A DNA stretch of 64,000 bases from Lachnospiraceae bacterium. GTDB taxonomy: Bacteria > Bacillota > Clostridia > Lachnospirales > Lachnospiraceae. The stretch lies in assembly GCA_017503735.1 (NCBI GenBank), contig JAFVSN010000005.1:71628-135627 (forward strand), given 5' to 3'. Numbering within the stretch: the first letter of the stretch is position 1; each line of letters starts with the position of its first letter. The notes under the pieces were generated by a model. It was not told the DNA's origin, ran no database searches, and saw nothing but the letters and a program-made list of their open reading frames with translations. Position numbers and translations under genes: made by a program. Shown here in pieces: positions 55,848 through 56,635 of the stretch.

Positions 55848-55916
55848 CTTAGTTTTTTGATTAGGCATATCAAAAAAGTCCTTTAATGGTTGACACAAAG
55901 ATAAATGTGTTATGTC

Positions 55917-55966
55917 AGAGGCTGTCATGTTTGCACGGGAAGGTGCAAATGTGACAGCTTCTTTTC
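55917..55966 (+). terminator. Rho-independent terminator after rplA
   Basis: AGAGGCTGTCA-TG-TTTGCAC pairs with GTGCAAA-TG-TGACAGCTTCT and ends in TTTT. It shares the AGAGGCTGTC arm with the terminators near 17.78 and 20.69 kb. A weaker TTTTTTGAT/ATCAAAAAA hairpin lies at 55853-55877. Confidence 0.75.
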
Positions 55967-55989
55967 ATGTAAAAAGTGTCTATACAGAC

Positions 55990-56200
55990 AAAGTGAGCAT
56001 TGAGTCGCTGGCGCAAGCTTGCTTGCGTAAAGCGGCGAAATGCGAACGCGCCCACGACCGAGCAACGGAGTCGCGAGGGCCCACAACGTCCGGGGGACGT
56101 TGGTACCGGACGGACCGAAACGGAGTGTAGACGCATGGGTAAGCGCGAAGCGCGGGACCTGCATGGGAAAAGATAGCATGGAACGCGCCGCCGGTGGGGG
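55990..56200. repeat. GC-rich non-coding block
   Basis: About 210 bases clearly richer in GC than the surroundings, with local hairpins such as CAACGTCC-GGG-GGACGTTG and GCGC-GAA-GCGC. It contains GAGTCGCGAGGGCCC. I see no credible gene. It resembles dispersed intergenic repeat sequence, like the cores near 4.75 and 48.5 kb in style. Confidence 0.4.
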
Positions 56201-56205
56201 GGAAT

Positions 56206-56569
56206 TACCATGATGAATGGGATAAGAGGGTTTGTCATGGTACGATTATTTTGGCGATGTTGCTTTTTACCATGAGACAGAGAAAATTGAGTTGTCTCAT
56301 GGTACGGATTTAGAAAAAAATTATTTTTTTACCATGATATGAGAACGGTAGGAGAATTCTCATGGTATAAAAACGCAGATATCAGTAAAGTTGAGTCGCG
56401 AAATTGCTGTTTCGGAAAGAAAATGAGTGGATTTGTACCATGAGAATAGCGAAAAGGAAATACCGTCATGGTAAAGGAAAAAATAAAAGAGAAAATTGTA
56501 CCATGAAAGTTAAGAAATAGAATGTGTATCATGGTAAAAAGAAAAATAGATGTAGGTCGGATACCATGA
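56206..56569. repeat. array of 11 alternating TACCATGA / TCATGGTA octamers
   Basis: TACCATGA occurs at 56206, 56268, 56330, 56436, 56499 and 56562; its reverse complement TCATGGTA occurs at 56235, 56297, 56360, 56466 and 56529. Orientation alternates strictly. Same-orientation copies are 62-63 bp apart, with one 106-bp gap in the middle. The 21-22 and 25 bp spacers are AT/A-rich, fixed in length and unlike each other. Each forward/reverse pair can form a hairpin; one (56268-56304) extends to 12 perfect base pairs. There is no gene here. It lies immediately upstream of the rplJ promoter. Confidence 0.9.
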
Positions 56570-56606: not shown

Positions 56607-56635
56607 TTGACATAAACGAAATTCCGTGGTATAGT
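56607..56635 (+). promoter_or_regulatory. sigma-A promoter of rplJ-rplL
   Basis: TTGACA at 56607-56612 and TATAGT at 56630-56635 are 17 bases apart, just upstream of the L10 leader. Confidence 0.85.

Follow-up and report, generated by a model that had tools for sequence, protein, structure and literature searches.

The rplA-rplJ locus and its array

The window, by which we mean the whole 64,000-nucleotide stretch of DNA analysed, comes from a gut bacterium of the Lachnospiraceae and contains two forward-strand reading frames that, from their proteins, we take to be rplA (L1; 55155..55847) and rplJ (L10; 56845..57339), the latter assignment agreeing with the L10 leader RNA upstream of it (RF00557; 56650..56783, forward strand, 69.4 bits in Rfam). 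Between these genes, at 56206..56569, lies an array of short half-sites in alternating orientation, placed between a terminator-like hairpin 3' of rplA (55917..55962, forward strand; two such found against 0.8 expected) and a promoter-like TTGACA-17-TATAGT 5' of rplJ (56607..56635, forward strand, 11 of 12 matches; four sites of that kind in the stretch against 2.0 expected), which begins 37 bp past the last half-site and is followed by the L10 leader.

The array comprises eleven exact octamers, forward TACCATGA and reverse TCATGGTA in strict alternation, as a preliminary description made from the sequence had reported and an octamer search bore out. Three pairs (56206..56213 forward and 56235..56242 reverse; 56268..56275 forward and 56297..56304 reverse; 56330..56337 forward and 56360..56367 reverse) are followed by a central 68-bp gap (56368..56435; 74 bp hexamer to hexamer, or about seven helical turns), by two further pairs (56436..56443 forward and 56466..56473 reverse; 56499..56506 forward and 56529..56536 reverse) and by an eleventh half-site (56562..56569, forward) that is partnerless in the window's genome (G000). 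Comparison within the genus reveals an exact reverse half-site at the vacant place in G003 and a one-base variant of it in G007. The octamer spacings were likewise correctly described, being 29, 29, 30, 30 and 30 bp from forward to reverse and 33 bp from reverse to forward, save for one reverse-to-forward gap of 76 bp (106 bp forward to forward). The whole window holds 13 octamers against 1.49 expected, a count reached in none of 100 shuffles.

Other sequences occupy the same intergenic gap here and in related genomes. The segment at 55983-56119 of the window is GC-rich, gives a sub-threshold match to the Clostridiales-1 RNA (26.1 bits, cut-off 48), and has similar sequences in the same gap of G006 and G007; it could represent a further repeat dispersed in the genus. 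A MITE-like insert with inverted ends (ATTCGGGTGTCAAAGC...) replaces the array in G004 (L041), and pieces similar to this insert adjoin the array in G003 and are also present in G006. The insert-free gaps of G001, G002 and G009 have a promoter-like TTGACA directly 3' of rplA; the window's genome has a similar TTGACA-type stretch near 55890, plus the second promoter-like site past the array. The rplJ array of G005 (L040, at the end of contig C8) consists of two TACCATGA units followed by unrelated DNA resembling the end of an insertion sequence.

Arrays across the genome and the genus

The pair pattern, which is palindromic, occurs 40 times (40 per strand) at nine loci of the window's genome, and its reversed control not once; allowing TRCCATGA raises the count to 43 pairs at ten loci, the gain being one unit on contig C10 and two in the C56 array, and the conserved core of the half-site is TRCCAT. 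Arrays of TACCAT, searched as triples, occur in six of the ten genomes of the genus and only once elsewhere, in G540, among 395 genomes searched, the backwards control of this search being uninformative because TACCAT reads the same backwards. A triple pattern of the full TACCATGA matched only the window's genome among 397 drawn genomes of the family, one genus-mate included. The preliminary description had allowed that its array would lose meaning if the octamer were scattered at random, or if strains sharing the locus had no such array; neither is the case, given the excess over shuffles in the window and over the control in the genome, and given arrays between rplA and rplJ in four of the ten genus genomes. 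Judged by equal positions, three of these ten genomes appear to be named Lachnospiraceae MAGs, G007 being RGIG4203, G003 RGIG7215 and G005 SIG307.

By frame calling the arrays are intergenic, save for short doubtful frames that overlap some of them. Those of the window's genome lie between convergent genes in four cases (L010, L011, L113, L115) and between co-directional genes in six (L005, L006, L008, L009, L012, L013), with L007 ambiguous; one TACCATT-type array of G009 lies between divergent genes. The flanking genes have no obvious common function, and because the arrays adjoin such unrelated genes, a regulatory role specific to rplJ is unsupported. A viral origin of the octamer pairs was also considered and set aside: the 14 matching viral contigs carry one pair each and none carries an array. 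Near-identical neighbouring units in the arrays on contigs C25 and C32 make it seem that arrays grow by tandem copying of units. In-register similarity of spacers at p<=0.05 was found in 15 of 58 comparisons of non-orthologous arrays against 2.9 expected, and as these comparisons are not independent, they do no more than suggest that arrays at different loci share an ancestor.

Geometry and nature of the half-sites

Distances between neighbouring half-sites were measured from hexamer to hexamer, dropping those of 200 bp or more, which left 264 distances from 27 arrays (orthologues included). As many as 244 of these are 30-32 bp, forward-reverse and reverse-forward alike, while the remaining 20 are 20, 43, 62-64, 73-75 or 84 bp, near two, four, six, seven and eight turns, with a vector strength of 0.91 at 10.46 bp. 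The step from one half-site to the next is thus about 31-32 bp, or three helical turns, and the orientation flips at each step. The 29-30 and 33 bp of the preliminary description are accurate as numbers, but do not amount to two distinct spacings, because the octamer had been measured off-centre and both steps become about 31-32 bp with the hexamer. Its proposal of selection on spacing is supported. Its view of the central gap as a decayed unit or an insertion fares less well: nine arrays, from six loci, have a gap of 67-69 bp (73-75 bp hexamer to hexamer, about seven turns) after their third pair, and the gap does not look like damage.

The strongly conserved part is some 6-8 bp per half-site. 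Bases beside the octamers follow the same preferences in both arms of a unit, and complementarity is absent outside the octamer: relative to randomly dealt arms, complementarity within units is significantly higher at none of 22 flanking positions (lowest p 0.09) and falls below random at several. Since the arms do not covary, protein half-sites are likelier than RNA hairpins, and protein half-sites are what the array elements look like from their sequence.

Conservation between sister species

At four loci (rplJ, ilvE, PadR and sigma-factor), orthologous arrays can be aligned between sister species. Identity in the half-site columns is 94-98% where neither species lacks a unit and 70-76% where one species has extra units, these being counted as mismatches, whereas spacers are 57-65% identical; gap columns number one in the G007-G003 comparison at rplJ and three in the sigma comparisons. 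Between G000 and G007, the linked gene described below has a dS of about 1.0 and a dN/dS of 0.09 and, judged by these rates, is under purifying selection. With spacers drifting and half-sites kept at a dS of about 1, the spacers therefore look near-neutral and the half-sites constrained. The spacers, initially described as unrelated, are so within the rplJ array but not between species, and with half-sites kept at such synonymous divergence of the linked gene, the suggestion of a decayed mobile array is unsupported at this locus. That of a multi-site array for a DNA-binding protein appears sound, in view of the kept half-sites and the lack of covariation between arms.

A linked nuclease-like gene

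The array at the ilvE locus ends directly upstream of a gene for a protein of 268 amino acids from an undescribed family, the only protein family examined as a partner of the arrays. In the window's genome the match lies outside the window, at G000:C56:86603-87361, within a 268-amino-acid frame that begins slightly upstream, and the array directly 5' of it has the same half-site as the rplJ array. No convincing match to a described family emerged. Pfam, searched with one and with 21 family members, reached a best E of 0.003, with no hit passing the cut-off in the member displayed; NCBIfam gave nothing over the cut-off for three members, and a PDB profile search reached a best E of 0.021. At E<=0.1, the Pfam hits of the 21 homologues included no transposase family.

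An alignment of 21 of the 30 homologues derived from loci, excluding broken, incomplete or close copies, displays C-terminal RSKSE, PDF and EH motifs that are invariant or nearly so, with E166, P196-D197-F198 and E212-H213 identical in all 21, the lysine of the third motif not being clear. The C-terminal part matches the end of PDC-S68 and, weakly, HEAT_CxxC_PDDEXK in PADLOC (6.7e-06), and weak PHROG matches name an endonuclease in four of the 21 members and a Holliday resolvase in two. On these motifs and matches, the C-terminus looks like a PD-(D/E)XK nuclease; a single-sequence structure prediction of the linked protein had a mean pLDDT of 35.

Among 195 relatives searched for homologues, 54 have a match, some solely through the C-terminal part of proteins longer than 1100 amino acids. 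Eight loci on viral contigs match the C-terminal part (one match reaching back to residue 108), and closer alignment of the viral contigs found no homologue; the three viral loci that were opened (L147, L149, L150) encode RecD-like helicases of 1110-1177 amino acids with this nuclease-like domain at their end. Plasmid matches, in seven records, were all partial, and a single full-length match is in an unverified 4.2-kb phage record, where the array test was negative. Several of the genes recur in set places among what look like housekeeping genes: at ilvE (five loci of the genus), rplM-rpsI (three), a comEC-like gene (four) and a holA-like gene (four).

Arrays beside homologues in other genera

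A scan for alternating arrays of any half-site, within 900 bp of a homologue, was positive at 46 of 71 places, 37 strongly and nine more weakly. The array is upstream of the homologue in 41 of the 46; its distance to the matched part runs from 24 to 641 bp and is in many cases within 130 bp. The same scan of 92 control tiles (4 kb each, known arrays masked, no distance limit) returned no strong and two weak arrays; the tiles were drawn from the window, loci of the genus (L012 and L013 among them hold homologues) and viral contigs rather than from other genera's genomes. The null for the scan was built from Markov samples, 10 per locus at k of 5-6 and three at k of 7-8. The 71 places, a part of the homologue matches among relatives, are the 30 relatives' loci, 40 further loci, the phage record and, in L012, a second homologue; L169 was discounted because it repeats L144, and only the ACCAA array was counted for L012. 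The test was negative at 25 places, several of them at contig ends and others not.

Unit periods of the 37 strong arrays, five of which are orthologous ones of the genus, are 52-54 bp (12 arrays), 61-64 bp (15), 73-75 bp (nine) and 86 bp (one), or about five, six, seven and eight turns. Their vector strength is 0.88 at 10.5 bp, reached in none of 20,000 draws of periods from 50-90, and it differs little when any other period between 10 and 11 bp is assumed. Some 40 half-site consensus strings stand beside homologues, some sharing a core and some coming from weak arrays; they differ so widely that no common recognition rule was seen among them. G106 alone contains seven homologues, each with a half-site of its own (one of the arrays is weak and one lies downstream), and its GCGAACAA half-site forms eight pairs beside the gene and solitary stretches of four and seven pairs on two other contigs, both at contig ends, so that they might be parts of one array. 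The window's genome also has a second homologue, on contig C46, with an array of its own (ACCAA, 53-bp unit). In G077 a linked array is present and a solitary one was not found. Overall, the pairing of gene and array is well supported. On contig C22 of G106 (L208), an array with another half-site lies one gene away from what are presumably rplJ-rplL, and in G136 (L184) arrays of CCCAA/CCCCAA type flank a homologue on both sides.

The N-terminal half and the half-site

At the ilvE locus of G005, G001 and G009, the array is in the same place as in the window's genome with the half-site TACCAT(T). Between G000 and G005, whose linked half-sites are TACCATGA and TACCATT, the protein shows 55% identity over its N-terminal 150 residues and 93% over the C-terminal part, and nucleotide identity rises at a breakpoint near codon 140-160; between G000 and G007, with the same linked half-site, the corresponding values are 79% and 89%. 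The G000-G005 pattern is such as recombinational replacement of the array along with the N-terminal half would leave. The N-terminal part is also the more divergent one in all 210 pairs of the 21 homologues. Because the mosaic gene changes where the linked half-site differs, we infer that the N-terminal half reads the half-site. The thought that this half might be an integrase-arm or AP2-like domain was a guess, and we do not put it forward.

Across the genus, the ilvE-locus gene is present in five of the six genomes with TACCAT arrays (split over two frames in G003); G001 is the sixth, and there the contig breaks off past the array. The four array-less genomes are without a close homologue, G002 and G006 having none, G004 a match of 31% and G008 a partial match of 41%. 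The pairing has two misfits. In G005 the linked half-site is TACCATT, yet two TACCATGA units persist at rplJ; and the window's genome, in which no TACCATT-type protein was found, contains a short array of that type at C9:18153. In G003, where the gene is split, the pairs number just 11 and half-sites depart slightly more often from the consensus (3 of 26 against 5 of 206, p=0.048), which hints weakly at a dependence of arrays on the gene; the frame break could be an assembly error, in a genome 86% complete.

Proposed role and alternatives

The arrays are probably clusters of binding sites for a sequence-specific, nuclease-like protein of an undescribed family. This protein would consist of a variable N-terminal reader of the half-site joined to a PD-(D/E)XK-like nuclease domain, presumably with one protein bound per half-site. 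Whole-turn distances between centres, combined with alternating orientation, would set the bound proteins on one face of the DNA, able to pair; it is from this geometry that an ordered multi-protein stretch is envisaged. The array linked to the gene would most likely control expression of that gene itself. At solitary arrays, such as that before rplJ, the protein might be docked with its cleavage restrained, the array serving this potentially harmful enzyme as a sink or base station; this docking role is a guess, and one that we hold tentatively, although it would account for the retention of half-sites in arrays that adjoin unrelated genes. Docking and restraint of the nuclease-like protein, together with autoregulation, is nevertheless the role that we favour.

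The main rival is a domesticated or still selfish satellite system, in which breaks by the nuclease and ensuing recombination copy, lengthen and spread the arrays, as with homing nucleases or REP/RAYT, and solitary arrays are non-autonomous offspring. Such an origin, possible if somewhat unlikely, would accommodate the near-identical neighbouring units of C25 and C32 with the tandem copying that they suggest, the in-register spacer similarity (15 of 58 against 2.9, in comparisons that are not independent) and the layout of three pairs, gap and three pairs common to nine arrays at six loci, although that layout could equally be a functional constraint. The 11 pairs and more frequent off-consensus half-sites of G003 with its split gene point the same way, subject to the possible assembly error in that incomplete genome. 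Against a selfish element stand the recurring places of several genes among apparent housekeeping genes and the matches in mobile DNA, those on viral contigs being to the C-terminal part, those on plasmids partial and the one full-length match in an unverified phage record. A purely autoregulatory operator, with the linked array repressing its gene and solitary arrays serving as operators of a regulon or surviving as relics of lost gene copies, is rather unlikely: it agrees with the upstream position of 41 of 46 arrays, many within 130 bp of the gene, but less well with arrays between convergent (four) or co-directional (six) genes of unrelated functions in the window's genome, and relics would not be expected to keep their half-sites over such divergence.

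The arrays could alternatively mark self to the nuclease, or keep it ready against invading DNA. The relation of the C-terminal part to PDC-S68, a candidate defence protein, the wide differences in half-site between homologues and the fast divergence of the N-terminal part would be in keeping with defence, but no obvious defence gene is among the neighbour families that recur in at least three loci, and we regard this reading as unlikely. A chain of RNA hairpins, which the preliminary description had entertained, or a CRISPR-like RNA is highly improbable. In its favour, each unit joins two complementary octamers, a G-T pair survives many of the position-2 changes when these are read in gene orientation, and three units are changed on both sides; the 22 flanking positions, however, lack covariation, the rplJ array has no match in Rfam, and whole-turn spacing is a property of DNA.

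Comparison with known systems

REP-associated tyrosine transposases (RAYTs) are encoded by nuclease-type genes flanked by their cognate REPs. In the accounts cited, REP/BIME elements are short repeats in regularly alternating orientation, dispersed between genes (PMC2817692), and REPs are palindromes of 20-40 bp (PMC3733652) whose definition includes a GTAG or CGTC tag. The arrays described here are likewise regular, alternating and located between genes, but are built of 5-8 bp half-sites with drifting spacers and whole-turn phasing instead of 20-40 bp palindromes, and by its motifs the linked protein is PD-(D/E)XK-like rather than a tyrosine (Y1/HUH) transposase. CRISPR arrays, with direct repeats of about 20-50 bp and unrelated spacers, share with them the regularity, the variable spacers and the proximity of a nuclease-type gene. 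As the preliminary description noted, the 8-bp half-sites, unlike CRISPR repeats, alternate in orientation; the spacers, moreover, are orthologous between species and drift; Cas relatives were absent among the matches of the linked protein, and the recurring neighbours of homologues are other genes.

The type III toxin-antitoxin system ToxIN has RNA repeats, conserved over the whole repeat, upstream of its toxin gene. It resembles the present system in having a repeat array directly upstream of a nuclease gene and differs from it in that here the half-sites alone are conserved, the spacers drift and there is no sign of RNA structure or covariation; with no Rfam family and no covarying stems over it, the array does not belong with the structured RNAs either. 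Plasmid centromeres and replication iterons are helically phased multi-site arrays on which an ordered protein-DNA stretch is built, a layout shared by the present arrays, which are nonetheless chromosomal, dispersed, alternating and provided with a nuclease-like partner. Finally, PDC-S68 and the RecD-like helicases have the same C-terminal nuclease-like domain (RSKSE...PDF...EHxG), the former in profiles of about 1200-1270 positions and the latter, where opened, in proteins of 1110-1177 amino acids, whereas here a protein of 265 amino acids has an N-terminal half of its own.

Implications

The dispersed copies of the array, the linked nuclease-like gene and the homologous modules with other half-sites all extend the preliminary description, and nuclease-linked alternating arrays point to an unrecognised DNA-recognition system. 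No description of such an array-nuclease system was found in the literature searched (for the octamer, alternating or intergenic repeats and nuclease-linked repeats), most subscription papers falling outside its scope. We see about an even chance that these are a previously undescribed class of single-gene modules, each with an exchangeable N-terminal reader and a matching phased array that change together, with dozens of apparent specificities in Lachnospiraceae and relatives and several modules per genome, and whose solitary cognate arrays organise or restrain the nuclease on the chromosome. If so, repeat arrays and a protein family would here be paired in a novel way, and the approximately 40 half-site consensus strings that nature supplies might allow a recognition code to be derived. 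The N-terminal half, apparently exchanged in nature, may serve as a modular DNA reader, the arrays offer a natural experiment in phase-locked protein-DNA assembly, and their number raises the testable question of why about ten stretches for docking a nuclease-like protein should be maintained on one chromosome.
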